Assembly: GCF_963675165.1 (NCBI RefSeq)
Contig: NC_087382.1
Location: 7,426,315 to 7,490,314 of the forward strand
Direction: 5' to 3'
Source of the DNA: Halichondria panicea
Taxonomy: Eukaryota > Porifera > Demospongiae > Suberitida > Halichondriidae
DNA length: 64,000 nt
Below, one piece after another: positions 1-63,535 of this stretch. The notes beneath the pieces are model-generated. The model searched no databases and was not told the DNA's origin. It saw only the letters and a program-made list of their open reading frames with translations. Each line of letters opens with the position of its first letter. The first letter of the stretch is position 1. The translations under genes were made by a program, and so were the position numbers.

Positions 1-3000
1 GGTACTGATGTGACAAGGCTGTTTCCAGTCAAGCCAATTGAGACGAGAGAATCCGTCGAACTCGCAGAAAGTGTGAGAAGTGATAGATTAAGTGTACTTG
101 GTTCAACCACTTCATTAAAGTAGAGAACAACATAAAGTGGAAGCATTCGGTCATCCATCTTAAAATCAAAAGCAACCAGTTTAGGAGGGGAGATGTCAGA
201 GACTGTATTGGAAGCTGGGAAGGGATCACTGATGGGAATCACTTCGCTCATAACTCCAGCCAAGTCAATGAAAGTACCTACTGAGAGTGCAATGTTAGTT
301 GTAGAAGGCGCTCTGCCTAGAAGATCATTGATTTTAATCCTATCTAAATCAGCATCATTTAGAAGCACAGTAACTTCTCGGTTGCTAGTAGCAATTGCTT
401 GGCCTCCGGATAGTTGCACTCTCTGAGGGTCATTTCGATTGGGCAGGAAGGTGATCCCAGTGAAATCAATTGCTGACACATTAATTGGCTCAGTGAATGA
501 GAGGAAGAGCATTCCTTCATTGAGATTGAGATCAAAACTGAACAGCTCAGGTGGTGTTACATCGGGTTCGATATTTGTAGCAACAATAGCAGACGTGTTG
601 CGAATACTAAGCACTGCATTTCCAGAAAGATCAGTTGCAAAAGTGGGCGGGAATGAAATATATGTCCTATCAGCAAACACTTCACTGGTTTTGATGGCAT
701 CAAGGTCCGAACTGGAGAGAACTATTGTAAACACATTGTTGATTTCCTCACTAGCAATACTGTCAGTTAGTTGATAATTAGTTGAACCAGCTGCTTCGAC
801 AGACACAGAGCTTTGGATTAGGATATCACTAACAGCAACTGAGGAAGTATTCAGTGCCTCATCAAAAGTAAGAGCGATTGTTCCTAAATTTAAGTCAACA
901 TCGACATTCTGTAGACTTGGTCTAGCATTATCAGAAATTACACGAATAGCTTGTTCTGATGTTGTTGCTTCGATACGAATGTTATTTGCATCTATCACTG
1001 CTCCCATTTGAATGCTTAGGAATGGACTTTGCACAAGACTCTCACGACTCTTGATTTGATTTAGGTCATTATCAGTAAGCTCAATTCGGATGCTTGACGT
1101 CAAATTGAACGTTGCATTGACATTGGACTCAAGAATAGAGTTAGTTAGGCTATATGATTGTGTTGCAGTTGCCCCATCTTGAAGAGTAAAGCCGGAAATC
1201 ACCACCATGGTACTATCGATAACTTCATTGAACATAACTTCAAGAATTCCACTGTTGAGATCCAGGCTAAAGAAACTAATAAGGGGAGGTGTTGAATCAA
1301 TCACTGTCGCAGACGAATTAAGAGGTTGGTCTGCATCAATTGCAATGAGCCCATTGCCGAAGGAGTCTAAAACAGCACCGGAGGTAATAGACAAGAATGT
1401 TGTATCAACATCACCAAAAGAAGGATTTCTCTTGATAGCATCAGAGTCAGCTTGCAGTAGAGTTACGTAGACAATAGCGGAGGTAGTATTTGGTGTTATA
1501 ACACCACCAGCCAGGGTCAGGGAGACGGTTGATGCATTTGTTGTAGGACCATTCTGCAGTGTTACTTGTGTCACATCCAATGTTGATACGTTCACTGCCT
1601 CACTGAATTCGAGAACTATAGTATTTGTGCCAAGGTCTAAATTAAATGCGACTAACACTGGATTGCTGTCATCTCCAGTAAAGTTCATAACTTGGAGCGT
1701 AATACTGTTTACGTTGAGACGAGCGAGATCTTGAATTGCTGTTGATATTATTCTGAGGAAAGTGCTGTTTCTGTTCGTTGCGAGATCTGCTATTCCCCTA
1801 ATGTCATCAAGATCACCTCTAGCAATATTATACTCGATGATGTTACTGATAGTTGTGAGAATGGGTCCAGATGTAAGTGGATGAGTTGCTACTGGCATTA
1901 GTTCAGAGCTTTGAAAGGTCAGAGATGGATGATTCAAGGTGGAGCCATCGACAATGTCATCAAAAACCAAAGTCAAGAGGCCAGTGTCTAGATCAAAGTT
2001 GAACATCAACAGATTAGGACTAGTACTGTCTCGTAGGAACAGGGATACTGTTATGGTTGTTGACATCAGATAAATATTTCCAGAAGTATCTTCAATTGCA
2101 CCTGTGTCTACTGTCAAGCTAAAGTCTGTGCCCAAAGTTGTTACTCTCTTAACTTGTTCAAGATCTTCCAAAGAGATGGTAATTTCGACTACTGTCTGAT
2201 CAGAGCTAGCATATCTAGCATCACCAGAGGATAGTGTGATACTTTCTGCTGACGTTGACTCTACAAGAGTGAAGCTTCCAAAGAATATTGTTCCTGTATT
2301 GACTGGCTCGTCAAAAGTGATTGTCATAACTCCAGAATTTAAGTCAAGCGATGTGAATTCATTGAATACTGGTTCTGTAGTATCTGGAATAAATGATCTC
2401 ACTACTATTGGATCCACACCATCAAATACCGGTATAGCGGGGTTGTCACGTGAGTGACTTTTACCAAGGTCTGTTGCAATATTTGCCGTGTAAGTGATGT
2501 ATGCTGTCAGATTGCTTGTGGCTAGACCTTCTGTTGATTTCAATGCATTCGCATCATCTCGTTGTAACTGGAGAACGACAAGCGTATCTTCAGTAGTAGC
2601 TTCGAAAAACGACAAGGTATGATTGAGTGTGGAGTTGAAAGAATCACGTATAGTTATAGCAGAGGTGCTAAAATCTTGAATCGGCTCATCAAATTCAACT
2701 ACAAGGACGTTTGAGTTCAAGTCGAGATCAAAACCAATGACAGTAGGACCAGTAGCATCTCCAGTTAAAGTACTAACTACTGCATTTAAGGACGTAGTTG
2801 TCAACTCGGCTGTGACTGGATTGTTGGCAAAGTCTACAATTATTCCGGCTGGATATCTGATATAGCATGCCAGTTCAACAACACAAAGCGACCTTGTGGT
2901 TTTAATGGCATTCAAGTCAACATTGGTTAGTTGGATTGTCACCACAGGTCCTAGTGAAGTTACCGATTCTCTACCTGTAAGAGTATAAACTTCTCCAGAC

Positions 3001-6000
3001 GACAAATCACTGGCTTGTGAGAGAGTAATATTCTCTGCTATTAGGGAGTCTGGCCGAACAGTCTTTGAAAATCGCAAAATCAAGGTTCCAGAATTGAGAT
3101 CTAACTCCTGGAAGTCGACAAGCTGAGGAGGATTGGGATCTATTACCAGAATGTTTACTTGAAGTGCAGTGTTGGAAACAATGTTGTTACGGCTCATGTC
3201 TTGAACAAAGTCTTCTGTGAAAGACAAGTAACAGTCAGTTTTATTTAGACAGAGAGTGTTAGAGAATAGTTTGTTAACACTTTGTTGATCGATGGAGACT
3301 TCTACAACATTTGAGTCAACACCGTTGCTTGATCCTGAAAGTGAAACACTTCTTAAAGGATTCATCGAAGCATCTTGTATGACAAGGGCAGACACATTCA
3401 GTGTGTCTCTTACATTCACAGTCTCACTAAATATCAGTGTGAGGTTACCAGTGTCGACATTGATGATGAACTGTAGAAGCATTGGCTGTGATGTATCATT
3501 TAGCACTTGAGTGGCCATGAATGGCATTGAAAGTAAGATAGGAATGATTGATACTCCACTGATATCTCTGATGCCATCTGAATCGATTGATATGTAAGTA
3601 TTGGCTTCACTTGTACCAAGATTTCTGAACGCTTTGACTTCATTAAGATCCGAATTCGATAGTGTGATTGTCAGAGTTGTGAAGTTGTCTGATGAGATGA
3701 TCATGCTGTCGATGGTAACTGATTGGACACCACTTGGCTCGTTGACGAGGACAAATGATCTTGAATTCACAGAGAAGACGTCTATAACCTCATCAAATGA
3801 CAATGTCAAAACTCCATTGTTCAGATTTAAACTGAATGCAGTAAGTACAGGACCAGTTGTGTCAGCAATAATCATATTCACTTCGGTGATAGTGGACTCC
3901 AATGCATTTCCAGCCAGGTCTTGAACAGAATCAGGTTGTACTAGCAAGTAAGTGTTGTCTTGTTGAGTGGCTAAGTCTGAATAGAATTTCAAGTTATTCA
4001 GGTCTGTTTGATCGAGGGTGATTGTAACAAGTGATGAATCGGCCAATGTACTGACTGTAGAAGCAGGAGTGATATCTACAGTTGGTCCAGCAGTTACATT
4101 CGATGAAAGTGTGAAACCCTCTACGTCTATTGTAGAAATTATTACTGGTTCTGAGAATTGGATCACGAGCGTACCGTTATTGAGATCAAGATCAAAGCTC
4201 AATAGAGAAGGTGCGTTTCTATCCGCAGTAACAGATGATGCAGGTATTGGATCAGTGAGCTGCTCAAACATGATATTGGTGAAGTCGAGCACAAACATAT
4301 GAGGGAGCAAAATGAATGTGTCTGATGGAGATGTTCCGAGTGCTTGATTGAGCTTAATCTGGTCACCATCTTCCAGAGACAAAGGTAAAATGATCTCACG
4401 TGCATCCATGGTGGGCACAGGAGTATTCTGGAGGGTGTAGTTAAGAGTTCTAGCTACAGAACTTCCAAGTAGAGTGATTTGATTAGGCATCAGGGTTTGA
4501 GCTCGAACAATTTCACTGAAAGTGAGAATTAGTGAAGAAGAATTCAGATCCAAAGTAAAATTGACCAGTTCTGGTGGTGTACTGTCTGTAATGAAAACTG
4601 AAGTAGGTCGTGCTGCAGATTCAGGTATAGGGACAAGAGAATTTTCAGAGGTATCATCAATGGCAGAATCATACACTACAAGGAAAGTAGTGAAATCATT
4701 CTCAGCCAGGCCAGGCAGCTCCTTTATATTGTCCAAGTCTGCAGCATCAATCTGCACAGCTATGGTATTGTTACTTGCCGGCAGATTCAATAGAGAAACG
4801 AATGTATAGCGTACTCTGGGGATTCGATCACTGTCGATCAGCTCAAACCTGCTGATATTGATGCTTGCTCCATTGACAACCTCTGAGAAATTAAGGAATA
4901 GCAGTCCTGCATTGAGATCTAAGCCAAAGGACAGAAGTGTGGGTAAAGTTTCATCACCAGCTACTCTACTTGCAGGCAAGGCAAAGGAGGCATTGATAGG
5001 TATGAGCTGGTTGTTAACCAGGTCTCTTGCAGTTGTATCCATAGCAGCTAAAAATGTATTTTCATTTGAAGTTCCCAGATCACCAAGAAGTTGAATAGCA
5101 TCGAAGTCGGCACTGGATAGTCTAAGCTCAAAGGAGGTGAAAGATAGTTGCGTCACAGTACCACCTGTTAGAGTTACGTTGACTGCATCAGAAATATGCG
5201 AATTCTGTAGAGTTATACCACTGGGATTTATACTTGTGGTATTCATTGCTTCTGAAAAGTTGAGAATGAGGAGCCCTATGTTCAGATCAAAGCTGAAAGA
5301 ATTCAGCTCAGGCGCAATTAAATCTGGAATGAATACATCAACCATTTCAATTGCTGATTCAAGACCATTGTTCGCCAAATCCAGAATGGCATCGCGAGCA
5401 ATATATATGTAGGTGTTGTTGATATTAGTTGCTAGATCTGGCTGTGCCTTGATTTCATTTACATCAGATTGTAGCAATTGAATTGTGATTGCTTTAGCAT
5501 CCTGAGATCTTGTCACCTGTCCACCCGATAAAGTTATGCGATCAGAAACTAGAGATGTTAGAGAGCTCTGAAGAGCTATGTTGTCAATGAGGAGAGTACT
5601 TGAATTGAGTACATCATCAAACGTGAGCGAAAGTGTTTCTGCAGTGAGATCAAGACTGGAGCTTACAAGAATAATTCCTTGATTATCAGGAATGTACACA
5701 TTTACGGGAAGAGCATTTCCGTTAGTGATAGCAATTACATCACGGCCAGCATAATCATTGAAAGCATCAGCGCTCATTATGAGGAAAGTGTTGTTAGTTT
5801 CAGTAGCCAATCCACTGATTTCACTGACTCCAACTCTGTCCTGAGACGAAAGCAGTATGGTCACTGTCTGAGAATCTCCGCCAGTTGTGAATGAGTCAGT
5901 TAGTGTGTACGACAAACCAGGAGCAGATTCACTGCCACTCTGAATAGAGATTGCCCTAGGATAGATAGAACTGACATCTATTAAGTCGTCAAAGGTTATA

Positions 6001-9000
6001 TTCAGGAGACCAATATTCATGTCCAATGTGAATGCTGTAGCTATAGCTTGCGATTCGTCAATTTGCACAGATAACACAATATCCAACTGATCAGAATTAC
6101 TGTTCATAGCCACATCCATTAGAGCACCAGCATTGATCGACAGGTTAGCTTCAACTCTTTCATGGTCCAAGAAGGTGAACATTTTGAGCAACAGTGCATC
6201 CTCAGATGATAGCTGAAATAATATCTGTGTTGTTATCTCTGTGAGAGAAATTAGCATTCCACCAGACAGTGTAACCACTGCTGATGAATTTGAAGAAGAG
6301 CTGATCGATACTTGTGAGGTGTTGAATGTAGTGGAAAGGACAGGCTCATCAAAGAAGATAAAGAGCACATCACGCTGAAGGTCCAACAACGCAGATGTAA
6401 TTTGCGGACCTTGTTCATCAGGTACATACACAGAAAGAAGAGCATTGGAAGTAGAAATTGGAGACGTGGGATTTGGTGGGTGTGCCAAATCTTGAATCAA
6501 GGAAGAAGTTACAGACAAGAAAGTTGTTGTATCCATGTCAGCGAAAGGTGCTGCCTTTAGAGCATTGGCATCTTCTGTAGTCAGAGCAATTGTGATAACT
6601 CTTCCATTTTGGGAAGAGGACGATCCTCCTTGAAGTTGATACAGTAGAGAAGTGTTGGTTTCATTCTTACTAGCTTGAATGGTAATGGCAGTAACTTGCA
6701 GTGTAGATACTTCCACAGGTTCATCAAAAGTGAGAAGTAGTTGATTGCTGTTCAGATCAAGAGTGAAAACATTCACTTGGGCTGGAATATTGTCTTCAAT
6801 GAGGTCAGTAACTATTCTTCCTTGTTCTAAATTACTGGCATTGGATAGTGGGTTGCCGGCTAGATCAGTTATGAAGGAAGGCATTACCCAAGCATAGCAA
6901 TTACTTCGGAAAGAACAGAGATATTGTTGACCCTTTATGATGTTCACATCATTATCACTGAGGATGAAACTAATTTCTCTTCCACTTGTAGAAAGTGAGA
7001 TTGTTGCATTGGGAGTATAGTTTGAGAAAGGATCAGCAAACAAAGATTGGAGGCGGAATCCAGATACATCAAAATTGGTAATGTTCACTGGCTCACTGAA
7101 GCGAAGTCTGATTTCCATACTGTTGAGATTGAGCTCTACAAACTCTACCAAAACAGGTAGATTCTTGTCAGGGATTATTTCTGCTACTGGAAGAGCAATG
7201 CCATCTTGTCTTGGAATCAGAGAATTTCCACTAGTATCTTGGACGGTATCATTGGTATATCTGATGAAACACATAGCAGGTGATGTACACAACTCGGGTT
7301 GTGCACGCAAAAAGTCGAAGTCACTGCTGTTGAGAATGACCAGCAGGACACTGTTTCCTTCCAGAGTGAATTCTGCTGAACTCAGTCTGAGTTCATTTGA
7401 GAATACAGATAGTCCATCTTGAATGACAATTTCACTGATCCTAAATGTTTCCAAGTTAATGGCCTTGCTAAAGGAGAAGCTAATCGTCCCTAAGTTGAGA
7501 TCTAGGGTGAAGGAACTTAGCCCTGGACTAATGTCATCTCTGCCGTATTCAGTTGCTCGTACAGCTTCATTTGGTGCAATGGCTTTTATACGCAATCCAT
7601 TAATACCGTACACTGTGTAGGATGGCATGGAGAGGTAGGTGGTGTTCAGCGAGTCAGCAAGTCCAGTAATAACTTGAAGATTGATAACATCAAATTGTGT
7701 AAGCTCAAGCAGAAGCGCATCGGAATCAACCTGAGTTAGTAGTGTACCACCGGTGAGTGTGTACACTAGAGCACTTGAAGGTGCAGACTGCAATGTGAGA
7801 AGAGTGGAATCGAATGTAGCCACACTCAATGCTTTACTGAAAGATAGAGATATTAGTGCCGGATCAAATTGGATAGTGAATGATACCAGCTCAGGTTCGT
7901 TTGTGTCTTGAATGATATTCCCCTGAACACCAGTAGCAATCTCGGCAAGTCTAATGGTGGCAAGATCCAGAACGAAACGGCTTTCAAGAGTGAGAAATGT
8001 TTGATCAGGAGATTCACCAATACCCAACATACGAATGTTGTCTTGCAGAGATTGATTGATGGAAATGGAGAGAATTGTGCTACTCTCAAGCGAATCTATC
8101 GGAGAGATTGATGGCAACCTTACATACGAAATATTTCGCTGTACAGAGTTTTGAAGAATAACTCTTTCAGGTGTTGCGGTGGAAGCATTTACAGACTCAC
8201 TAAATGTAAGGATGACCTGACCAGTATTATAGTCAAGTATCCAATCCACTAGTTCAGGAGGTGTGAAGTCACCAGTTATCGAGTTGATTCGCATAATTGG
8301 AGTAGTTTGCAATAAGAACCCAAACAGATCGATGAAAGAGTCTGAGAACATCTGTATAAAGGTAGTGTTGATAGCTTGGAGTAGTGGTAATCGGAAGAAA
8401 AGTTCATCCAAATCAGTTGAACTCAGAGCAATTTCCACATCAGGCCCGTTCATTGTGTTTGTGATCATGCTGCTTGTTAGGTTATAGGCTACTGCCACAG
8501 AGGTATTGGTTGACAGTTGAATTAAGGAGACATCAGTTGAGCTCACATCTATTTGCACTGGTTCACTGAAGTGTAGTACTATTGTGAACGGATATGTTGC
8601 CAGCCCACTGCTCACAGCATCAAATGACTCGAGAATAGGTGGTGACATATCTCGAATGGGGGTACCGGCAATCATCAAGGAATCTACAGTGTTGATCGGA
8701 TTTCCAGCTATGTCAGCAACTGCGCCCATTGATACCATCAAGTAGCAATTGAATCTGTTGGTACACAAGTTGGAGTCTAGTTTTAGAGCATTGAGATCGT
8801 CTCTTGTCAGTTCAACTGTGGCGACAGAGCCATTCGTTGGCTGAGCAAAGCCACCACTAAGAGTAAGAACATTTATTGGAGGTGTAAGGTCACTGACCAG
8901 TGATATCAGGCTGTAATTGAACGAGTTGACATCCACAACTTCATCAAATGTTAGAGTTACGAGTCCTTGGTCAATATTTAATTCAAAGACAAACATGTTG

Positions 9001-12000
9001 GGAACTACGCCATCCGGATACACGAAGTTCACAGGGATGGCTTCACTGAAAGATTTGCCTGTTAGCAAGTTTCCTGCTCTGTCAGTCACTGATCCATTAG
9101 CAATGGCTAGGAAGGTGTTGGATGGCGAACCCAGGTCTGGAAGATACTTGACAAGATTAGAGTCTTCTTCAGTCAATTCAATAGTAATCACAGCACCCAT
9201 GGTATCAATCACGTTGCTAGTATCTCCATTAAGCGTCAGAAGAGAGGTGGGTAATCCATTGTTAGTGTTCAGCAGAGTTAGCCCGGAAACATTGAAAGTA
9301 GAAGATAGGACTGTTTCAGAGAAGGTAAGAATCAGATTAGCTCTAGTCCTGTTCAAGTCTAGTACAAAACCAATAAACTGTGGAGATGTTGTATCCTGAA
9401 TGTACTCCGATACTCTAATAGCGCTTCCATCAGGCAGTTCCAAAGCAGCAATGCCGTTGGTATCTTCAAAAGCTTCAATCTGATTTCTGAGATAAGTTGT
9501 TTCATTAGAAACTGCGAGGCCAGGGATATTTTTGATAATATTGAGATCGGATTCTGACAGAAAAATTGACATTTCCACACTGTTTTCAAGTGAATGAGTC
9601 CCCATTGTCAATTGATGCTGCTGGCTCAGAACAGAGAGCTGTCTACTCTGCACTATTAAACGGTGGATCATGAGCGTGTTGCCACGGATAGTCTCACTGA
9701 AAGTTATCACGAGTTCACCTGTATCAAGGTTGAATGAAAAGGAAGAAATCATGGGCGGAGTCAGGTCATCTCTGAGGCGGATAGCTTGGAGAGCTTCTGT
9801 GAACATTAGTCCTTCAATAGCATTTCCATTAAAATCTTCTGCTGCAGAGCTAAGTAGAGACAAATAGGTATCACTTTCATTTGTCCCCAGATTAAAGTCA
9901 GCTTTGATTTCATTCAAATCTTGTTCAACCAGGAAAATAGTGTAAATTAAATTGTTCATCGATGTTTCGAAAATACCACTTGAGATAGGAAATTGTCGGT
10001 TCGAATCGAAATTCAGGATATTCGAATCTTGAAGAGTAAAATCAGTCACGTTGAAGGTAGTGAAGTCAACTGCTTCTGAAAAACTAAGCAAAAGAACTCC
10101 TAGATTGATATCCAGTTCAAATCCTTCTAGACTTGGTCGCGTTGTGTCTGGAGTGAACATTTTTACAAGCTGTGTTGTACTTCTAACATTAAGATTGGCT
10201 GTATCAGCAATGAGTTCTGCTGTTATTGATACATACGTTGTGAGATTGGACGTTGCAATCAATCGGTTCGATTTGATAACATTAAGATCAGTTGAAGAGA
10301 TTTCAATCACTACTTCGTAGCCATCATTACTACTGGTGAAGCCATTTCTGAGCTGGTAAGTGGCATTGGGATTTCCCACTTCTCCAACAAGAAACAAGCG
10401 AGAAATGTCAAGAGACATTACATTGACAATGTCATCAAAGGTCAAAAATATTAAACCTGCATTCATATCCAGATCGAAAGATGTGAGGGACGGTGGTGTG
10501 GAGTCTTCAATGAAAGTAGTTAATTGTAGCGGAGGTGATGCAATGATGGAATTTTCTGCAGTATCTCGCAAGGTTGCATCAGCAAGTGTCAAGAAGCTAT
10601 TTGTTACTGAGGTACCAATGTCAGGGTTGAGTTTAATTGCTTGAAAGTCTTCATCGCTGATTCTTATACGAATCACTCTCTTATCAAATTCGTCAATGTA
10701 AGAAACTTGCTCGGCATCGACAGTCAGTGTGAAGTTAGATCCACTATTTGCTCTCTGCTGTAGAGTAATTCCATCACGAACTACAATGGCACTCAATGGT
10801 TCATCAGCACTAATTTCTAGTATCCCTTGATTGATATCAAGCAAGCTAAATTGAATATTACTGATACTTGGTGGAGTAACATCCGGGAAGAAATTTCTCG
10901 CAGGAATTGGCTCAGCAGGGGGATTAATAAAGTTGTGACTATTCGTATTCATCACGCCACTCGCTCCAACGTCACGAATAAATGTATCATTATAGGTGAT
11001 GTATGTATTGGAAGGTTCTGTTGCAAGGTCAAGTCGTGCTTTGATGGCAACTACATCAATGCCTTGTAGTAATGTCTCCACAACTGTAGATGGATTAAGA
11101 GTGAGTCTATTGATATTAATTAGTGTGTATCTGGTAGTCTCATTCAAGTCACTCACAAATGTGAGCGCAGTTGGAACAAAATTTGCGGAGTCAATAATCT
11201 CATCAAATGTGAAAGACAGTTCAAGAGTTTCCATACTTAGGCTATAGGACTGAAGCTCTGGAGGAGTAGAATCGGCAATAATATCCAAAGGAACATCTGT
11301 ATTTAAGAATGTGCCAGTAGCTTCAACAGGTAATACCGAGTTGCCTTCAATGTCCATAACCAAGTTGGAAGTGAATCTGAGTGCACAATTGATTGTTTGC
11401 CGGCAGAATTGTGAGCTGGCTTTTACTCGGTTCAGATCTTCCAATGAAAGTCGTATAGTTACCATGCTACTATCATTTGATATTACACTTCCTCCAGTCA
11501 GTGAAAATCCAATTGCACCAACCTCGAAAGATTGAGCCAGAGTGAGCTGAGTAAGGTTGAAAGACTCAGCTCTGACTTCCTCAGTAAAACTTAGCACAAT
11601 ATCTCCCGTATTGAAATCAAATAGTTCAAATTGCAATAGCTCTGGACGAACCATGTCCAGTGAGAGGCTTAAAGCTCGCCTTGCTCCGCCATCAGTTATA
11701 GGATCAACTCTTGCGCCAGTTGTATCATTGGCAAATGCAGCATCAAATGTAAAGTAGCAATTTGTTAGCGAAATACAGAATCCACTGTCAACTAGTATAA
11801 TGTAGTCTTCCAAGCTGAGGTCCACTACAACAGAGCTGAAGGTTGATAGTGTAAAAGTGGAGGATAGGAATTGGAATCTATCTTCTGTACTTGGCCTCAA
11901 GGCATTACTCTGCAAACCGCCCCTGAGGATGTCTATACTAGCTGGATCTAGAGCTTCGTTGAACTCAAATACTACTCTTCTTGCCATTAAATCAACAACG

Positions 12001-54000: not shown

Positions 54001-57000
54001 AATGTTAACACTAGTTCACCAGTGTTAAGGTCAAAATCATAACTCACCAGATTAGGTGAAGTTGTGTCGTCTGTGAAGTTACCTACAATTTCTGCTAGTG
54101 GAAAAACTAATGGTTCTATTTGCCGTAGAACCACTTCTGCAACCATATTTCCAGCCATATCTGACAGAAAATTTGTAGTAAATTGGATAAAACATTGAAG
54201 AGGCTGTCCACATATAGCAGAGTTCATTTTGATGCCATTCAGATCTGTAATAGACAGTTGGATTTCAATCATAGGTCCGTTCTCGCTGAAAATGGTACCT
54301 TCTGATAGTGAATAAGGTGGTGTGGTCAATCTAGGTAGTGTATACCATTGAGCTAAAGTAACTTCTGAAACTTGCACTGATGACACATTCACTGTTTCGT
54401 CGAAGGACACAATGAGTCGTCCAGTATTGAGGTCAAACGCTGAGAAACCAACAAGAGTGGGTGGCGTGGTATCCGGTGTAAATGTGCTGACAGGTCTACC
54501 TTCAAAAAATTGAATGATTTCCACAGGATTTCCAGCAATGTCAGTGATGGTAACAGCTTGAAGACTACGTGGGAAGTATAGATAGCAGGTGATATTGTCT
54601 CGGCAGACTTGGATCCTCTTGATCTCATTCAACTCATCGTTAGTAAATTCAATTCGAAGATCACGCAAACTGTTTGGAGCATAATCAACATTGCTGGAAA
54701 ACGCACTGAAATCCTCCACATCAGTTGTGTCAACCACTTCTTCTGAGAGAACAAGCTCACCAAGTTGAAACGACGATAATATTACTGCCTCATCGAAACC
54801 CAAAGTCATAACTCCCACATTCAGGTCAAAATCAAATGTAGACAACGTGGGTGTTGTAATGTCTAGAATAACTTCACTCGCTTGCAGTGTACGCTCCACA
54901 CCTGGGTTACCAGCAGCATCAAGGATAGCTCCGGCTTCCAAAGCTAGATAGGTGTCACTTTGGTTGTTGCCTAAGTTTCGGAATTTAATCAAGTCCAGAT
55001 CCGTACCAGCCAGAGTTATGACAGTTCTGATATCATTGTTAGTAGGAAAAGTTCCATTAGTCAATGTGACACTCATTTGGGGGTTAGCTCTAGCATCCTG
55101 AATCGCAAACAATGAAATTTGAATGGAGGAACCATCAATTGTTTCACCAAAAGTGAGGAATAGCTCTCCGGTGTTCAAATCAAGTGTGAAATCTTCAATG
55201 ATGGGACCAATTGTATCTGGCAGAAGCTCCTCAGCTCTGAGTGCATTGGAAGATGGAATGGCACGTACTGGATTACTTGAAGTATCTTGTACACCAGTGG
55301 AAGTGACAACAAGGTAAGTGTCATTTCTGTCCGTAGCTAGATCACTGAAACTCTTGATTATGTTCAAGTCTTCCACGCCAATTCTGATCTGTATAACATC
55401 ACTACTATCACTTATCACTAGGCTATTAGTGGTGAGAGTGAAGCTGACTAGATTAGCACCAGGAATTTCGGCATTTTGGATGTTTTGCAGCGTGTATGAA
55501 GTCACTAGCAGAGTATCAGCATTAATAGCTTCATTGAAAAACAGCCTTAATGTTCCAAGAGCAAAATCGAGAATGAAACGCTCAATTATGGGACCAGAAG
55601 TGTCTCCAACAAAAGAAGATGGTGGGATTCCAATCTCATTACCAATAATAGGGTTTCCAAGCATGTCAAAAACTGATGCATTGGTGAAGATAAGGAAGGT
55701 ATTGTCAAGTGACGAAGCTAGGCTGGTGTTGAGCTTTATGGCATTGATGTCCTCTCTGGCTAAGTATATCTCAAAGTCTCTAGAATTTGTAGTTACTGAA
55801 GAGGCAACAAGTGACACAGTTTGAGTTGCATTTGCAGGAAAGGCAGTGTTTTGGATCGTAAACAAGCTTAAGTCGAGAGTGTTTGCATCAACAATCTCGG
55901 AGAAATTCAGCACAAGCAAGCCTACGTCAACATCCAGACTATACATCAGGAGCTCTGGAGGTGTAAAATCAAACACAAACTCTCCTACTTGCATTCCTAG
56001 TGGCCCCACTTCAATGACAGGGATTCCAGCCATGTCAGTCACAAATGAAGCAGGGAAGGTGATGTATGTGTCATCTCTAGAGGTAACAAGATTTCGAATA
56101 CCCTTGATTCCATTCAGGTCGGTATCTGAGAACATCACCGTAGCTAGTGGAGATGTGAATGATTCATCAAAGATGCCATCACTAAGAACGTAGGTAAGCA
56201 ATGGAGAGAATTCACGGTTCTGAATGGTTAGATCACTTAATATAAGGCTTTGACTATCAACAACTTCAGAGAATGTGAATGTAATAGAGCCTGCACTGAG
56301 ATCCACGGTGTAGTTGAGTAGCACTGGACTGACAGTATCACCAATGAATACATCTGCTCGAATACCATTATCAATATCACGTTCCGTAGCGGGGTTGAAA
56401 CTAACATCTTGAACAAGGTTGGAACTGAAAGACAGGTACGAGTTTAATACTGAGCTAGCAACATTGCGTATTGCTTTAAGGGCTGTGAGGTCATCGCCAG
56501 AAAAGGTGACTAACACTTCTACAGCAGTGACAAACTCAAAAGCAGTTTCACTGCTCAAAGTATATGAATCGGCTCTCAACGTAGCATTTCTTTCACCTTG
56601 GAAAGTTAGCGCTTTAACATTGAAAAAATTTCGAGAATAGGTTTCCGAAAAAGTCAAGGATATTTCACCAGAGTTCAGATCGAGAGTGAACGTGTCCAAG
56701 TCTACAGTAGTAGTGTCATTGATCACATCTGCAGCAGGTAGAGCATTAGCAAAATCAAAACCAGGATCTAATGGATTGCTGAAAAGATCGTTAACGGCTC
56801 CCATTGGTAAAACTAGGAATGTGTCACTAACAGATGTACCAATCGATAGGTTGAAGTTGAGAGTATTGAGATCATCTGGAACTAGAGTAATTACAAGTGT
56901 CCTTCCATCAATAGTCCTGGTTACTGTGCCTCCAGTGAGACTTATCACAGCAGTAGAGGCAGTATCAAAAACCTGCTCATTCTGGACAGAAATACTGGTT

Positions 57001-60000
57001 GTAGTCAATGTCTCTGCATACATGAAATCAGTGAATGTTAGAAGCAGTTCACCATTATCACGATCAAATATAAAAGATGTGAGCTGGGGAGACGCAAAAT
57101 CGATGGTATAATTTAAGACCTGGATGGCTTTGCCGTCAGTAATAGCAAGGACGTCAATACCATCAACGTCATCAATAGCAAAAGCCTGCATTGTCAGCCA
57201 TGTTGTATCTATGCTCCTTGCAAGACCAAACATGTCCTTCATCCCAAGGAAGTCAACGTCACTGAATTGGACAAGGACTTCATACCCGTTAGGACTATCT
57301 GTGGTGGAGTTTGTTAGCGTGTAATGGAGGCCATTGGTCGCCCTGAGACTGTTCTGAATTCTAAATGCAGTTGGATCAAATGTTATCATGGTCATGACAT
57401 CATCGAACGTGAGATTCATTACGCCGAGGTTCATATCAAGAGCAAAAGATATTAGTTGTGGTCTAGTTGCATCAGGGACAAATGAAGAAGCTGGTATATT
57501 CAGCATGTCAGGAATGGCAATCTCCGACATGTCAACAATGGCTCCACTCTGCACTGATAGGTAAGTGGTAGTTGAGTTGATTGCAAGCTGTGAGCTTAGT
57601 TTAATAGCAGTGACATCATCTTCAGCAAGCATGATGATGATGATCTTGACTCCATCATCTTGGGTGACCACTTGACCTCCAGTTAGTGTGACTGAGCTCA
57701 CAGGAATAGGTTGCTCTCCAGAATTGATGTTGAAGAATGTCAAATTCTGTAGAGTCGAAGTGCGAACAGGTTCATTGAAAGTAAGCAGAAGACGATCTTC
57801 ATTGAAGTCCAGCTGAAATTCATTAATTAAAGGTGGTGTAGTGTCATTAACAACGTTCGTAGCCTGGACGGCTGCAGTGCTATCTTCAGGGCGTATCGGT
57901 AAGGGCTCATGTGCCAAGTCACTTACAAAGTTTTCATCAAAGAATACAAAAGTGGTACTCCTATCCATGGCGAGATTGTTGTTTCCTTTGATAGCACATA
58001 GATCATCATCATTGAATACAAGTGTGATGATATCACCATTTGGAGGCATCACAACACCACCAGTTAGTGTGTACACCTCTACCGATGGAACTGGGGAGCC
58101 TGAGGTTGACTGAATAGTCAGTGACGTGGGCTTCATTGATGTGTGAGATACTGGCTCACTGAATATGAAGGAAATCGTTCCCTGGTTCAAATCTAAGTCG
58201 TAAGCATCTAAATAAGGCCGTTCCTCGTCGAGAGTAAATGTTGTTGCTATGAATCCTGGGAAAACCTCAAGCACTTCGTTTAAAGGATTTCTACCTTCAG
58301 CATTGTCTAATATTGCACCTTGTAGCAGTCTAACATAGCAGGTGTACTTCCGTGTGCACACAAAGGGATCCAACTTGATTCTTTCAACGTCTGCTTGAGA
58401 TAAATTAAAAGACACAGTTGCAGCATTCTCCATGGTGATCAATGTTGCGTCAGTGAGAGTAAGGTTGCTTATTGGCTCAGAGAAGAGTGTTTGGAAGACA
58501 ACTCTTGAAGTATCAAATGAAGATGGTCGCACCGGTTCATCAAATCTCAAAGTAAAGTACCCGTCACGAAGATTGAACTCGACAAACTCCACTAAGTTAG
58601 GTGCATTGACATCGGGGGTGACGACAGTTGCCTGCATAGCCATTTCAGTTGATAACTCATCATTGAAAATATCATCGAAATTGGTCACTGCCCCAGCATC
58701 GTAAGAGATAAAGCAATTGCTCGTATTTGAACAAAACTCTTCTTCTCTTTTCAGAGTAATATTGTCAGTTTCTGTAAGAGTAACTCTGAGTTGAAAATAG
58801 TGTGTCCAGATTCCGTTAACCGTTTGCGGCCAATATCTTTGAGTTGTTGCAGTGAGACTATGCGAGAATACAGCTGATGAATTTGCTGATTGCAGCGTGA
58901 ACAGGGAAAGATTCACAGTTGACACAGAATTCCTTATTGCTTCATTAAATGTGAGAAAAAGGTAGCCTTCATCTAAATCAAGACTAAACTCTTCTACGAA
59001 TGGTGGTGAAGTGTCAGGGACAAAGTGTCTAACTTCAAGTGCATCAATATTAGGCACACGGACAAGAAAATTGCTGTTCATATCTCTGATTGCAAAGTTC
59101 AAGATGGCCAAGAAGGTGGTGTCATTTGTTATAGCAAGCTGGTTTCTTCTTTGAATTTCAGCAAGATCATCTTTACGTAACTCAATTACAACAACAGGAC
59201 TATCGGTAGATTGCAAGGGAGAGCTGACTAAATCATGAAGTCTGACTAAAGAATTAGGCTCTGATACACGATTCTGTATTTCGACTTGGTTTTGATCAAA
59301 GGTACTGTGGTCTACAGCCTCATCAAATTCAAGAGTGAGTATCCCAATATTCATATCCAGATCAAAAGCAATTACCATTGGTTGAGTTGTATCCTCCGTG
59401 AAGCCTATAGCCTCTCTTGCAGTATTTGAGAGAATTTCAAAAGCAAGATTCTCAGCTGAATCTTGAACAATGCCTCTTGGAAAAGATATGTAGGTATTTG
59501 TAGCCATAGTACCAAGCTGAGTGTTGACTTTGATAGCATTGAGCTCATCGATACTGATTTCAATATCAATAATGGACACATTTGCGGTTGTAACAATGAT
59601 ACTGTTTGAAATGCTTTGGTTGTTGGATGTGGAGCCTGATGAACTCTGAAGGAGAATTGAAGAGATATTGAGAGTGGAAACTACTACATCCTCATTGAAA
59701 GTGAAGGAAATCACTCCAATGTTCATATCCAAAGAGAAGCTATCCAGATTTGGGGGATTTAGATCCCCAGAGATGTTACGAGCCTGAACAGCATTTGCAG
59801 AATCAACAAGACTAGTTGGTAGGTCAACCATGTCAAAAGCAGCATTTGCTTCAGCTCTGAGGAAACTTGAATTCACTACTGAGCCTAGAGGATACCTGAT
59901 CTTGATTGCTTCAAGGTCCGTAGAGGTAAGAAGAATTTCTATTTCAGCGCTATCGATAAGTGTGACTGTGCCGCCAGTTAGGGTATATTCATTAGTTGAT

Positions 60001-63000
60001 CCAGGAGCCTCTTGCACTGTGAAGCTTGTGGGTACAACTGTAGAAGCATTCACTGTCTCAGAAAAGACCACAAGCAAGACAATACTGATTCCATTAGGAG
60101 CATTTCGTAGTTCAAAAGAAGAAACTTGAGGAGATGTTGTGTCATTAGTAAATACGCTAACTGGGATGGCAGACATTATTGAGACAGGGGCCACAAGATT
60201 TCCAAATGTATCTTCCAAAGCTCCCGCACCCAAAGAAAGATAGACATTGTTCTCATTTGTAGCAAGACCAGTGTCTGCCTTGATAGCATTGAGATCACTA
60301 GCAAGCAGCATGATATCTAAGGTTCTGTTCAAGGCTGCCTGAAGAGCAGTTCCACCTGTAAGAGTATAGCTAGTGCTTGCTAAGGAAGCATCTTGGATAG
60401 TAACAAACGCTCCATTAAATGTGATAGGGTTTACAGGTTCACGGTAGATCAAGGTAAGGATTCCAGAGTTCAGATCAAAATTAAATGCCATAATGAGTGG
60501 TCCACTTGTATCAGGGAATACATTTGATGCTTGTATAGCAATGACAGTTTGCAGTATTAGATTATTGTAAATGTCGACAACTGCACCTTCCTCAAAGCCA
60601 ATGAAAGTGTTATCAACTGTTTCAGCAATGCTATTAGACAACTTTATATCAAGGGCAACATCAGGAAGTAGGTCTATAATGATTTCAGTGCCATCAACAG
60701 AGCTTACTGTCCCACTCAGGGTAATTCCGTTGGTCAAAGCTGATGTGTTGTACATCGTGAAAAACGACACATTCAACAAATTAGCTTGTACAGGCTCATC
60801 AAACGTAAGACGAACCTGGTCGGTGCCGAGATCAAGAACAAAGCGGTTAAGAACAGGTGGTGAAGTGTCGTTAATTACATTAGTAGCCATTGTGAGTAAG
60901 CCAACATCAGATGAGAATGCAGCCAAATCAGTAACAGCATTGGCTAAAACTTGCAAATATGTGTTGGATGTAGCTGTTCCAAAGTCGCGTCGCAGTTTGA
61001 GGAAATTGATGTCCGCAGGAAGAAGGGACAATGTGACCTCTGAACTTATTCCTGTGCTAGTTGCCCCTCCACTTATCATAATCTCATCAGCAGGAACAGT
61101 ATCAGTGCTTCTAAGTATTAGGTGGGTACTTACAAAGGTTGATAGGTCCACAGTCTCATCAAACGTGATAAGCAGTTCCCCAGTATTGACATCTAAAACG
61201 AAAGAGTCTAGTGCAGGTGGAGTAACATCTCGAGCGAAAACGGAAACCTGTACTGCAACCATTGTCTGATTCTGAGCAGTGGATTGGATTGGATTAGAAG
61301 ATGTATCATTGATGGCACCGGCTTCAATCTGAAGGTATGTATTCGACACACTCGTAGCTACATCAGTTGCAGCTTTGATAGCATTGAGGTCATTTCTAGA
61401 GAGCAGAATAGTCACTACAGTCATCATTTCTGAGACTGTTGTAGTACCCATTTGGAGACTAACGCTAGAAGAACCGTTGATAGCACTACTCTGAAGGATC
61501 AACTTGCTAAACACCAACGTCGAATCAAGTACAGGCTCATCGAAAAACAACACAAGCTCCCCAGAGTCCAGATCAAAGTTAAACATATCATTCAACAGAG
61601 CAGGTGGAATAACATCAGATGTGTAGTTTCTTGTTGGGATACCACGAGTGTCAGTTACGGCGAGGATATCCACACCTCTAATATCTCTGAAAGCTTCTGC
61701 TTCAATGGTGATGTAAGAGTTGACAGCAGATGTAGCTACATCAAGGTTTGCTTTCAATGCTTGAAAGTCTTCTTGTGTAAGATCAATAACAATGACAGTT
61801 GAGTCTCCAGACACAACTGTACCTCCAGTAAGGTCATAAAAACCAGTATTTGTGGATGCATCTGCGTCCTGAATGGTAACAGTCCTTCGGAAAAGTCTCT
61901 CTGATGAAGCATCAATCACATCATTGAAGGTCAGCTCGAGTCTACCAATATTCAAGTCAATGGAAAAGTCCATGAGAGTAGCAGCAGTGTCGTCTTGGAT
62001 AACCTCAGTGGCACTAAGATTTTGCTGCATGTCATTGGTGTTGTTAGCAATATCATCAAAAGCAAAAGGTTCTACAATTAGCTGCGTGTTAGCTGGGGTA
62101 GTGCCTATGGAAGAATTGGTTTTAATTGCTGTAAGTGCAGCACTATCAAGCATGAACCGAAGAACCACCAAAGCTCCCAATGCTGGGGCACCATTGATGT
62201 CAACAATTACACTACCTCCCAAGCCAACATTGAAGGAACCATCCTGGTTGGTAATGCTAAAGTTGGCACTAGCGATGGTCGAAACAAACACTGGTTCTGA
62301 GAAGGTAATAAGAACCTGGTTTGCGTCAAGATCAAGAGTGAAAGACTGGATTTGAGGTGCACGTGTGTCACTAGTGACGTTTCTTGCTTGCTGGGCAAAG
62401 GAGGAGTTGATCTCTGATACGGCGTTATCGAAAAGATCTTCAATGGCTATAGACGCTACTGAAATAAAGGTATTATCAATAGAGCTAGCAAACGAGGCTA
62501 ACTTTAGCAAATGAGCATCAGCATTCAGTTGGACACTGAGGATCGCAGCGTCATTGGGAGGAGGGGTAGAGCTAGAGGTAAGAGATACCATGCCACCACC
62601 AGAAGCAGTAGACTGCAAAGATATTTCTGCAGGATTGAATGTGTCAACACTCACAGGTTCATCGAATACAAGTGTGAGGATGTCGTCGGAGAGATCCAGC
62701 TCGAAGGCAACTAACTCCGGTCCAGTCATATCGGTAATGAACTGCAACAACTGGTGCTGATTTCGGTGCATGGCTGGATCATATGCTCTGATAGGCATTG
62801 AGGCTAAATCTGCAACAAAGGAGGAGGTGAAAACAGGCACACAGTCGGTTGTTGAAGAGCAAAGACCAGCATTAAGCTTGATTTCATCCAAATCCTCATC
62901 GGACACACGAAAGCTGACCACATCACTCAAGATGCAGTTAAAGGCAGTGCTACAATTGCCTCCTGTCAAGCCAACAGCTTCACCACTGGCAGGAACTGGA

Positions 63001-63508
63001 AAGTCATTCTGTAGCAGTAGGTCAGTGAAGTTGAACGTGCTTACATTAACTACCTCTGTGAAGCTGAAGGTGAGCATACCTTGATCAAGATCAAACACAA
63101 CAAAACTAGCAAGCTCTGGAGGCAAAGAATCTGGCACATTTCCATCAATAGCAGTACCCGCCGTGATATCGACAGTAAGTTCTACTGCAGAATTATCAAC
63201 AATACCAGTACCCGTATCAAAATACACAAATGTGTCAGTGATTGAGGTGCCAAAGGTGGCATCAGTTTTGATGGCAATCTGTAGTTGATTACCTATAGGA
63301 CAGGTGACTGTCATGGCAGTAGCATCAAATACTGCATTGCCAGCAAGAGAAAAAGCCGTAGCAAAACCATTTGAACTTGATGCAAGGAAAATCCTCGAGC
63401 AATTGATACTAGCACTAAGAAGTGCTGGATCAATACCAGTGAAGGTCAACGTCAAAGTATTTGCGTTTAGATCCAAAGTATGAGATACCGTCAACGTTGG
63501 TTGAGCAC
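1..63508 (-). CDS. Giant tandem-repeat extracellular Ig-like protein, single exon, partial at both ends
   Basis: One open frame on the minus strand covers 63508 to 1 and leaves the window still open. It is at least 21,169 codons, roughly 2.3 MDa. Conserved D-L-D/D-L-N codons fall at coordinates divisible by three at every anchor checked, for example 5643, 14193, 22779, 31350, 40230, 48432 and 57432, so no frameshift or intron intervenes. It encodes 171 copies of a module of about 124 residues: a T-P-P-x-L start, then strand-like F-x-L-D-L-N, L-T-F-S-E-P-V-N, I-T-L-Q, L-T-G-G, a helix-like D-L-N-x-I-K, L-A-T-S..N-T-Y-L-S and D-M-A-G-N-P-V. Many N-x-S/T sequons and paired cysteines point to secretion. 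The upstream in-frame stop (63516-63518) and the AG at 63510-63509 indicate the exon begins at a splice acceptor in phase 1. No catalytic motif or membrane segment was seen. The modules resemble bacterial Ig-like Big_5/SwmB domains, by pattern only. A structural, adhesive or matrix role is inferred. C-terminus and leader are not visible. Confidence 0.9.
2865..3251 (-). other. Cysteine doublet, C-terminal partial block units 8-9
   Basis: C-L-N-K-T-D-C then C-V-V-E-L-A-C. The distance from the previous doublet is 4,032 bp. This is the last doublet in the window. Confidence 0.8.
5703..5735 (-). other. Marker motif, C-terminal partial block
   Basis: It reads V-I-A-I-T-N-G-N-A-L-P-V and follows A-F-N-D-Y-A-G-R-D. 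This is the last marker before the window edge. The next would be expected about 2.8 kb beyond position 1. Confidence 0.8.
6897..7289 (-). other. Cysteine doublet, block 6 units 20-21
   Basis: C-T-S-P-A-M-C then C-S-F-R-S-N-C. The distance from the regular doublet at 11385 is 4,488 bp. Confidence 0.8.
8745..8765 (-). other. Extra single cysteine unit, block 6 unit 16
   Basis: C-T-N-R-F-N-C has exactly the doublet-type loop and the same position within its unit. It stands alone between the two regular doublets of block 6, and no equivalent was seen at unit 16 of the other blocks. Confidence 0.75.
11385..11777 (-). other. Cysteine doublet, block 6 units 8-9
   Basis: C-I-S-L-T-N-C then C-R-Q-T-I-N-C. 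The distance from the previous doublet is 4,053 bp. Confidence 0.8.
14247..14279 (-). other. Marker motif, super-repeat block 6
   Basis: It reads G-L-A-I-T-D-G-K-A-L-Q-V and follows V-I-D-D-T-S-G-N-D. The distance to the next copy is 8,544 bp. Confidence 0.8.
15438..15830 (-). other. Cysteine doublet, block 5 units 20-21
   Basis: C-T-S-N-V-S-N-D-C (x7 loop) then C-T-Q-R-G-N-C. The distance from the previous doublet is 4,530 bp. Confidence 0.8.
19968..20366 (-). other. Cysteine doublet, block 5 units 8-9
   Basis: C-T-S-T-S-N-C then C-S-G-F-Q-N-C. The distance from the previous doublet is 4,071 bp. Confidence 0.8.
22839..22871 (-). other. Marker motif, super-repeat block 5
   Basis: It reads V-L-A-I-T-D-G-K-G-L-P-V and follows A-S-A-I-D-D-T-L-G-I-D. 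The distance to the next copy is 8,592 bp. Confidence 0.8.
24039..24428 (-). other. Cysteine doublet, block 4 units 20-21
   Basis: C-F-S-D-Q-S-D-D-C (x7 loop) then C-S-Y-R-G-N-C. The distance from the previous doublet is 4,497 bp. Confidence 0.8.
28536..28925 (-). other. Cysteine doublet, block 4 units 8-9
   Basis: C-T-R-V-D-N-C then C-A-G-R-D-T-C. The distance from the previous doublet is 4,080 bp. Confidence 0.8.
31410..31442 (-). other. Marker motif, super-repeat block 4
   Basis: It reads I-L-A-I-T-N-G-R-A-L-Q-V and follows A-F-A-I-D-D-A-F-G-N-D. The distance to the next copy is 8,571 bp. Confidence 0.8.
32616..33011 (-). other. Cysteine doublet, block 3 units 20-21
   Basis: C-F-S-L-S-S-C then C-N-I-R-G-N-C. 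The distance from the previous doublet is 4,431 bp. Confidence 0.8.
37047..37445 (-). other. Cysteine doublet, block 3 units 8-9
   Basis: C-T-Q-R-S-D-C then C-V-N-R-V-S-C. The distance from the previous doublet is 4,092 bp. Confidence 0.8.
39921..39953 (-). other. Marker motif, super-repeat block 3
   Basis: It reads V-L-A-I-T-N-G-K-A-Q-Q-A and follows A-F-A-I-D-D-I-S-G-V-D. The distance to the next copy is 8,511 bp. Confidence 0.8.
41139..41525 (-). other. Cysteine doublet, block 2 units 20-21
   Basis: C-I-D-G-R-D-C then C-T-V-R-S-N-C. The distance from the previous doublet is 4,470 bp. Confidence 0.8.
45609..45998 (-). other. Cysteine doublet, block 2 units 8-9
   Basis: C-T-S-M-T-D-C then C-T-F-G-L-V-C. 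The distance from the previous doublet is 4,086 bp. Confidence 0.8.
48492..48524 (-). other. Marker motif, super-repeat block 2
   Basis: It reads V-L-A-V-T-D-G-K-A-L-Q-A and follows I-D-D-V-F-G-V-D. The distance to the next copy is 8,571 bp. Confidence 0.8.
49695..50102 (-). other. Cysteine doublet, block 1 units 20-21
   Basis: C-S-G-L-S-M-D-D-C (long x7 loop) then C-T-G-R-G-N-C. The distance from the previous doublet is 4,497 bp. Confidence 0.8.
54192..54605 (-). other. Cysteine doublet, block 1 units 8-9
   Basis: C-R-D-N-I-T-C then C-G-Q-P-L-Q-C, each followed by an aromatic residue and a beta-strand-like stretch. The distance from the previous doublet is 4,146 bp. Confidence 0.8.
57117..57149 (-). 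other. Marker motif, super-repeat block 1
   Basis: The motif D-V-L-A-I-T-D-G-K-A-I-Q-V ends the first unit of the block, in place of the usual G-N-P-V-x-x-I region. It follows A-F-A-I-D-D. The distance to the next copy is 8,625 bp. Confidence 0.8.
58338..58733 (-). other. Cysteine doublet, two adjacent units
   Basis: C-S-N-T-S-N-C and, one unit later, C-T-R-K-Y-T-C occupy the place of the L-A-T-S..N-T-Y segment. The doublet lies 4,503 bp after the cysteine-rich N-terminal unit. Confidence 0.8.
61632..61664 (-). other. Marker-like motif, N-terminal half-period copy
   Basis: It reads as V-D-I-L-A-V-T-D-T-R-G-I-P and lies 4,515 bp (12 units) before the canonical marker at 57117-57149. The core glycine and D-x-L-A-x-T-D are kept, but the G-K-A that follows is changed. 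It may descend from the half-block duplication. Confidence 0.6.
62841..62954 (-). other. Cysteine-rich unit near N-terminus (four Cys)
   Basis: A single unit carries two C-x5-C loops: C-S-T-A-F-N-C (62954-62934) in the region before the helix segment, and C-S-S-T-T-D-C (62861-62841) at the standard L-A-T-S position. It stands where a doublet is predicted by the 11/12-unit rhythm, but the neighbouring unit lacks cysteines. Confidence 0.75.
63120..63508 (-). other. N-terminal divergent capping unit of the giant protein
   Basis: This is the first visible module of the array. It keeps the core S-H-T-L-D-L-N and L-T-L-T-F strands but lacks the usual S-E-P-V-N, the L-T-G-G turn and the D-L-N-x-I-K helix. 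In their place are G-I-D-P-A-L-L and a T-C-P-I-G-N segment. It has two cysteines (codons 63399-63401 and 63300-63302) in positions unlike those of the doublet units, so a different disulfide is possible. It ends at the D-S-L-P-P-E-L boundary to unit 2. The first in-frame ATG is at 63314, in the middle of this module, so it is not a plausible start. Terminal modules of long arrays are often capped and divergent; that reading is inference. Confidence 0.7.
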
Positions 63509-63535
63509 CTAATGATTAGATTTGGATGTATATCA
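63505..63535 (-). promoter_or_regulatory. Probable 3' splice site opening the giant exon
   Basis: Reading the minus strand, a branch-like CTAATC is followed by ATTAG and then GTGCTCAACC. The AG occupies 63510-63509, so the exon starts at 63508. The coding frame needs one base from the preceding exon (phase 1) to complete a glycine codon. An in-frame TAA at 63516-63518 blocks further extension of the frame. The polypyrimidine tract is weak. Confidence 0.55.

Follow-up and report, generated by a model that had tools for sequence, protein, structure and literature searches.

Giant proteins such as PKZILLA reach a size of about 45,000 aa. Among sponges, the available passages of a report on the glass sponge Aphrocallistes vastus describe a protein of 49,014 aa and 5.34 MDa (Avas.s016.g412.i1) that is encoded in a single 147-kbp exon (PMC10282587). 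Titin (connectin), likewise a giant, is built as a chain of Ig-like beads in which super-repeats occur; in the parts of the literature accessible to us, it is described as a muscle protein combining Ig and fn3 domains and encoded in more than 350 exons (PMC11040099, PMC12198301); the super-repeat of its C-zone corresponds to the thick filament's ~43-nm spacing and provides a template for the length of that filament (PMC11040099). According to the accessible part of its description, MpAFP, a bacterial giant adhesin, contains ~120 tandem Ig-like domains of ~45 Å each, all identical 104-aa copies, and was proposed to form a ~0.6-µm rod stiffened by Ca2+ on acidic residues between the repeats (PMC4083281).

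The gene described here (gene A), from the sponge Halichondria panicea, shares with A. vastus the apparent encoding of a giant protein in a single giant exon, in a genome of 131.46 Mb compared to 80.32 Mb; the passages available for A. vastus contain no information on domains (PMC10282587). Given the 147-kbp exon in that species, a giant single exon is not in itself new. Gene A resembles titin in encoding a giant chain of Ig-like beads with a super-repeat; unlike titin, it consists of one domain family in one exon, with a putative leader peptide and a 23-domain unit. Unlike those of MpAFP, the repeats of gene A are eukaryotic and only ~28% identical to one another.

The window, that is, the whole stretch of 64,000 nucleotides that was analyzed, corresponds to C6:7426315-7490314 (contig NC_087382.1) in an assembly of 39 contigs. 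Six-frame translation yields a minus-strand frame that is open from position 63515 to position 3 (21,171 codons, no stops, no N); the other five frames contain 560 to 2,131 stops each, and their longest open runs span 61 to 274 codons. The plus-strand frame that starts at base 1 has 560 stops, compared to 2,131 and 1,170 in the other two plus-strand frames, and includes open runs as long as 274 codons; this openness probably mirrors codon bias in the coding strand and does not reflect genes. An earlier note on this DNA had claimed an exon of at least 63.5 kb (at least 21,169 codons), open from 63508 to the window edge, with an array that shows no sign of ending there. The full translation that it proposed as a check revealed no in-frame stop, and the extension of the contig towards the C-terminus, also proposed, indicated that the length had been understated. 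Reading the genome outward without gaps, from C6:7346315 to 7541314 and further to 7556314, we found the frame of gene A open from C6:7489829 to 7365159 (41,557 codons, free of N and of in-frame stops) and ending at a TAA at C6:7365156, ~61 kb beyond the window edge. Thus, the window contains about half of the exon. The claim that a random frame of such length is effectively impossible stands as well: for a sequence of this exon's base composition, 41,557 consecutive codons without a stop have a log10 probability of about -1043.

The start of the exon proposed in that note, 63508, coincides exactly with the first base after the AG (63509..63510, minus strand) of a phase-1 splice acceptor sequence, CATTAG|GTGC. 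From the acceptor to the stop, the giant exon spans 124,667 nt, its 5' half occupying 1..63508 (minus strand) of the window and continuing outside it; splicing is inferred, without RNA evidence. With this qualification, gene A contains one uninterrupted coding exon of over 100 kb, so that its description as one of the longest eukaryotic exons holds, although the exon in the available record of A. vastus is longer (PMC10282587).

A profile HMM built from the array matches 334 domains that jointly cover 98.2% of the gene A frame, in one register throughout, as had been claimed for the repeats within the window. The array contains only one hole of at least 40 aa, which is filled by a 115-aa divergent repeat (beginning with FTLNLDTKLLSLQF and ending with DMTPPEVVNT), bringing the total to 335 domains of ~124 aa; domains 1-170 map to 171..63479 (minus strand) in the window. 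Apart from the place of the divergent repeat, the spacing of the domains varies between 108 and 139 aa, and at 286 of the 333 junctions, the HMM matches overlap, touch or are separated by 1-2 aa, so that an undetected stop-free intron would nearly always fall inside a domain.

The domains are highly diverged, with a mean pairwise identity of 28% and 52.5% for the best pair in genes A and B (see below), which accounts for the failure of Tandem Repeats Finder to report any tandem repeat in the window. No Pfam family reached the cut-off in 13 distinct slices of at most 1000 aa (12 from gene A, covering 11,567 of its 41,557 aa, and one from gene B) or in 39 single domains drawn from the 156 near-full ones in the window. 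The best sub-threshold match was Big_5, the SbsA-type bacterial Ig-like domain, which scored 21.9 bits against a gathering score of 23.6 in one of the 13 slices, and reached that score in none of the slices and in none of the 39 single domains. A sequence-profile search of the PDB yielded no matches, and neither did a search of plasmids and phages; three NCBIfam hits, each in one of the 39 domains, were dismissed as chance matches. Prokaryote contigs, searched with six short exact peptide patterns only, gave two loci (Dehalococcoidia and Cohnella) with weak profile scores (at best 13.4 bits per domain), which we read as remote Ig-like relatives rather than a source of the repeat. Across the parts scanned, no Pfam entry reaches threshold for this Ig-like family. 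The titin/connectin family is characterized by Pfam Ig and fn3 domains plus a kinase, and Calx-beta domains are a feature of the sponge aggregation factor. The 12 slices of gene A contain no Pfam Ig, fn3, kinase or Calx-beta domain; on this sample, neither assignment holds. For titin, this agrees with the coverage of 98.2% of the whole frame by the repeat HMM, and the similarity is limited to a resemblance in the way the protein might work.

AlphaFold2 modeled three consecutive domains with a pLDDT of 95.7 and a pTM of 0.86 (alignment of 66 triples, of the 138 in the window), and a triple that includes a cysteine station (see below) with a pLDDT of 90.8 and a pTM of 0.81 (24 of the 26 listed station triples). 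The best structural match of the domain is the S-layer protein SbsC (4uic; Z 10.3, rmsd 2.6 over 98 residues), at only 13% identity; the remaining matches, with Z of at most 5.2, carry little meaning. The top Foldseek match of the three-domain model is the Chlamydomonas flagella membrane glycoprotein FMG1B (PDB 9gos; E 7.6e-10), but with 11% identity and a TM-score of 0.25 on the query, this is no evidence of descent. Matches to plexin, contactin and antibody chains were taken as generic beta-sandwich similarity. We confidently predict that the domain is an Ig-like beta-sandwich of the S-layer/Ig class, although the structure has not been solved.

The domains of gene A are arranged in a higher-order pattern. 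Similarity between domains peaks at offsets 23, 46, 69 and so on up to 299 (z 21.0, 15.2, 14.8 ... 4.8), compared to a maximum z of 4.1 in 200 shuffles of the domain order and of 4.6 in another 200; at all other offsets, z does not exceed 6.2 (offset 11, followed by 58 and 35), consistent with a half-period. The period persists when cysteines are masked and when the domains with two cysteines are omitted, and restoring the repeat missed by the HMM only moved the peaks at 183, 206 and 229 to 184, 207 and 230. A hidden-state fit with 23 phases did not outperform four runs in which the domain order had been shuffled, and we discarded it; neither the autocorrelation nor the cysteine folding described next depends on this fit. 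Seven super-repeat units delineated by autocorrelation fit within the window, all on the minus strand: unit 1 (domains 1-23) at 54840..63479, unit 2 (24-46) at 46221..54836, unit 3 (47-69) at 37668..46220, unit 4 (70-92) at 29148..37664, unit 5 (93-115) at 20601..29144, unit 6 (116-138) at 12006..20594 and unit 7 (139-161) at 3471..12002.

Superimposed on this period are pairs of neighboring domains with two cysteines, here called Cys stations, at domains 1-2, 13-14, 24-25, 36-37 and so on, with steps alternating between 12 and 11. Both domains contain at least two cysteines at all 28 first stations (56/56 domains), compared to 13 of the 276 other domains of gene A, and folding of the cysteines at period 23 yields a score of 34.4, compared to 6.2 at most when the labels were shuffled 500 times. 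The two cysteines are usually spaced as C-x5-C, which holds for 49 of the 55 station domains that have exactly two cysteines. No domain was gained or lost across the first 28 stations, so that, in gene A, a higher-order domain period is kept in register. Station 29 (domains 323-324) has no cysteines, and station 30, the last domain, has one. The window (minus strand) includes station 1 (62706..63479; domains 1-2, at least two cysteines each), followed by those at 58206..58988 (domains 13-14), 54042..54836 (24-25), 49575..50315 (36-37), 45483..46220 (47-48), 41010..41735 (59-60), 36912..37664 (70-71), 32487..33227 (82-83), 28407..29144 (93-94), 23910..24662 (105-106), 19827..20594 (116-117), 15312..16049 (128-129), 11247..12002 (139-140), 6774..7511 (151-152) and 2739..3470 (162-163). 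Our search of the literature, which did not extend to most subscription journals, found no account of the domain, of the super-repeat or of such a gene pair, and on giant exons or proteins of this kind only the A. vastus report (PMC10282587) came close; the 23-domain super-repeat with adjacent two-Cys domains is, as far as searched, unreported.

The array is old and has been maintained by selection. Between domains 23 apart, identity at codon positions 1, 2 and 3 is 0.443, 0.552 and 0.325, and agreement at fourfold sites is 0.315 compared to 0.300 expected from composition. Control offsets of 5, 16 and 30 domains give nearly the same values (0.414-0.421, 0.528-0.532 and 0.320-0.321), so this pattern characterizes the whole array. 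Silent sites are saturated, being near random, and the protein is conserved, which is the mark of old protein-level selection. Tandem arrays are often misassembled, and this is the only point in favor of an artefact in which the assembler multiplied or chained a short array. However, exact DNA repeats in the exon extend to no more than 21 nt, compared to 18 nt in one codon-shuffled control, so the sequence is effectively unique for an assembler and misassembly is implausible; together with the ~28% identity of the domains, the even composition across the window and the 12/11 register that continues without a slip over 28 stations, this brings the artefact explanation close to refutation. That the array is decaying or untranslated might be suspected from its far end, where the last unit has degenerated, the cysteine set is incomplete at stations 29 and 30, and the frame terminates within a domain; against 124.7 kb without a stop or frameshift and the conservation by codon position, we consider this very improbable. 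The lack of stops, the near absence of sequence between the domains, the conservation by codon position and the acceptor sequence at 63508 support reading the array as one uninterrupted coding exon, apparently the best interpretation, pending RNA evidence.

Genome searches with the consensus repeat and with a domain of paralogue D, in which 150 of 612 and 150 of 579 candidates, respectively, were scored, placed all the matches listed on C6, in four genes (A to D); further family members elsewhere in the genome are not excluded. Gene B (C6:7495370-7543630, plus strand) is a second giant gene, divergent to gene A, whose frame starts 5.5 kb from it; it comprises 16,087 codons in a single frame with 129 repeat matches, and has a start codon and a hydrophobic leader in frame. 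The domains of gene B show a similarity period of 37 (z 6.5, shuffles up to 4.3; in a repeat run, z 6.6 against 4.1). Its cysteine pattern alone is not significant (autocorrelation of 0.39 at 37; 1000 shuffles reach 0.56), and the cysteine pairs at domains 25, 43, 62, 80 and 98 are suggestive only. Gene C (C6:2382770-2432070, minus strand), the third giant gene, has open frames of 6,172 and 10,065 codons, between which an intron interrupts a domain at LTG|G, implying that the family tolerates splicing; gene C also has a candidate signal-peptide exon and, at the C-terminus, TIG domains and one Calx-beta domain. Its 129 matches, some of which are split halves, show no super-repeat (best z 2.6, against as much as 4.2 in shuffles); a super-repeat is therefore not a requirement of the family. 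In the smaller gene D (C6:2244393-2251907, minus strand; open frames with repeats), repeat frames of 747 and 1,060 codons are followed by growth-factor-receptor-like Cys-rich exons and then by a hydrophobic, transmembrane-like stretch with a short tail, an order that places the repeats outside the cell.

The array would have grown by tandem duplication of the 23-domain (8.6-kb) block inside one exon, the block itself probably deriving from a doubling of 11/12 domains. The super-repeat and the Cys stations might then be a mere scar of such growth, without any role as a ruler or in docking. Mean similarity decreases from 24.0 to 17.9, 17.2 and 12.6 at offsets 23, 46, 69 and 92, as stepwise tandem duplication predicts, and the different period of gene B along with the lack of one in gene C indicate that the fold needs no single spacing. 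Yet, even though domains of the same phase share an identity of only ~0.32 and their silent sites are saturated, each of the 56 domains at stations 1-28 has retained two or more cysteines, and no domain was gained or lost between these stations. Cysteines are often the best-kept residues anyway, so their retention is not decisive, and we give the scar interpretation a chance only slightly short of even.

Scanning the 9.2 kb upstream of gene A, we found five combinations of a leader with a phase-1 donor. Three of these are antisense to gene B and one would leave an intron of only about 40 bp, which leaves as the preferred candidate leader exon MSSTSHLQLVIFTLLALATMS (C6:7491933-7491869), with a phase-1 donor at 7491869 that fits the phase-1 acceptor of the giant exon. 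Compared by eye, the first domains of gene A (SHTLDLNANTLTLTF...SINCSRI) and gene C (SWELDLNAGVLQITV...TVDCTKI) are similar. Gene A encodes 755 sequons, an excess over the 634 +/- 23 in 50 shuffles. An extracellular location of the product has only indirect support, from the leader peptides, the sequon excess and the transmembrane stretch of a paralogue; gene A itself showed no anchor to membrane or matrix. At the 3' end, the stop codon falls within the last domain (...AYNLTGN*), with AATAAA directly after it; this is the point where paralogue C has its intron (LTG|GTGAGT). This coincidence leaves open a lost splice donor or unseen C-terminal exons; judging from the sequence, loss of a donor may have truncated the C-terminus, and the 19 kb downstream yielded no further exon resembling the repeats.

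The surroundings of gene A include two very similar tandem reading frames ~3 kb downstream on the same strand (C6:7355870-7362081, minus), which we take to be glutamine-synthetase-like, and neighboring kinase-Kelch and death-domain genes that presumably resemble sponge genes. On both strands, a block of simple repeats at C6:7550145-7553518 translates to VTTVT/CNTCHH in several of the frames. In the genome, there are 26 matches to fibrillar-collagen C-terminal domains, 21 of them above the cut-off (four only with neighbors), with a best E-value of 2e-15, as would be expected of an animal.

The frame, the 335 in-register domains, the selection, the predicted fold, the 23-domain super-repeat and the Cys stations are established here; starting from these, we propose that one giant exon gives rise to a secreted filament protein of ~41,576 aa and 4.5 MDa. 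The short signal-peptide exon ~2 kb upstream would be spliced to the giant exon at 63508, and the mRNA would be translated whole. Joined end to end, the domains would form an extracellular rod of ~1.5 µm, assuming the ~45 Å per domain given in the accessible description of MpAFP (PMC4083281). By analogy, calcium might stiffen the rod at the strictly conserved acidic residues (acidic in 96% of the domains at column E16, 93% at D67, 97% at D95 and 98% at D118), but binding is inferred and no ion was modeled. The paired Cys domains would recur along the axis every ~50 nm, with 23 domains spanning ~104 nm, and partners or neighboring molecules could dock at these stations. As a whole, this explanation appears likely, in the absence of RNA, peptide or read data. 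It is also conceivable that the exon is real but, through internal promoters, polyadenylation, splicing or proteolysis, yields shorter proteins instead of one 4.5-MDa chain, which nothing tested here excludes and for which the intron inside a domain of paralogue C provides a precedent; with neither the domain register nor the 23-domain pattern broken over the first 28 stations, and with a domain coverage that leaves little intron-like filler, we regard such processing as improbable.

Under the preferred reading of a single giant chain, the 23-domain register could be a ruler, by analogy with titin, and could equally be a trace of block duplication. As a ruler, the protein would be an extracellular chain of ~1.5 µm and 335 domains that provides a ~50/100-nm period for the matrix or a surface coat, a counterpart to the super-repeats of titin that would have originated separately in an animal without muscle, with a sister gene B of period 37. 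This remains a tentative idea, without imaging support, and we do not consider it the probable one.

Beyond the single-sentence report for A. vastus, the interior of the array is readable here, revealing an Ig-like family, saturated silent sites and a 23-domain register. The locus raises the questions of how the cells of this sponge would handle a coding sequence of 125 kb, from its transcription through its escape from splicing to its translation, and whether rulers built from super-repeats may have arisen outside muscle.
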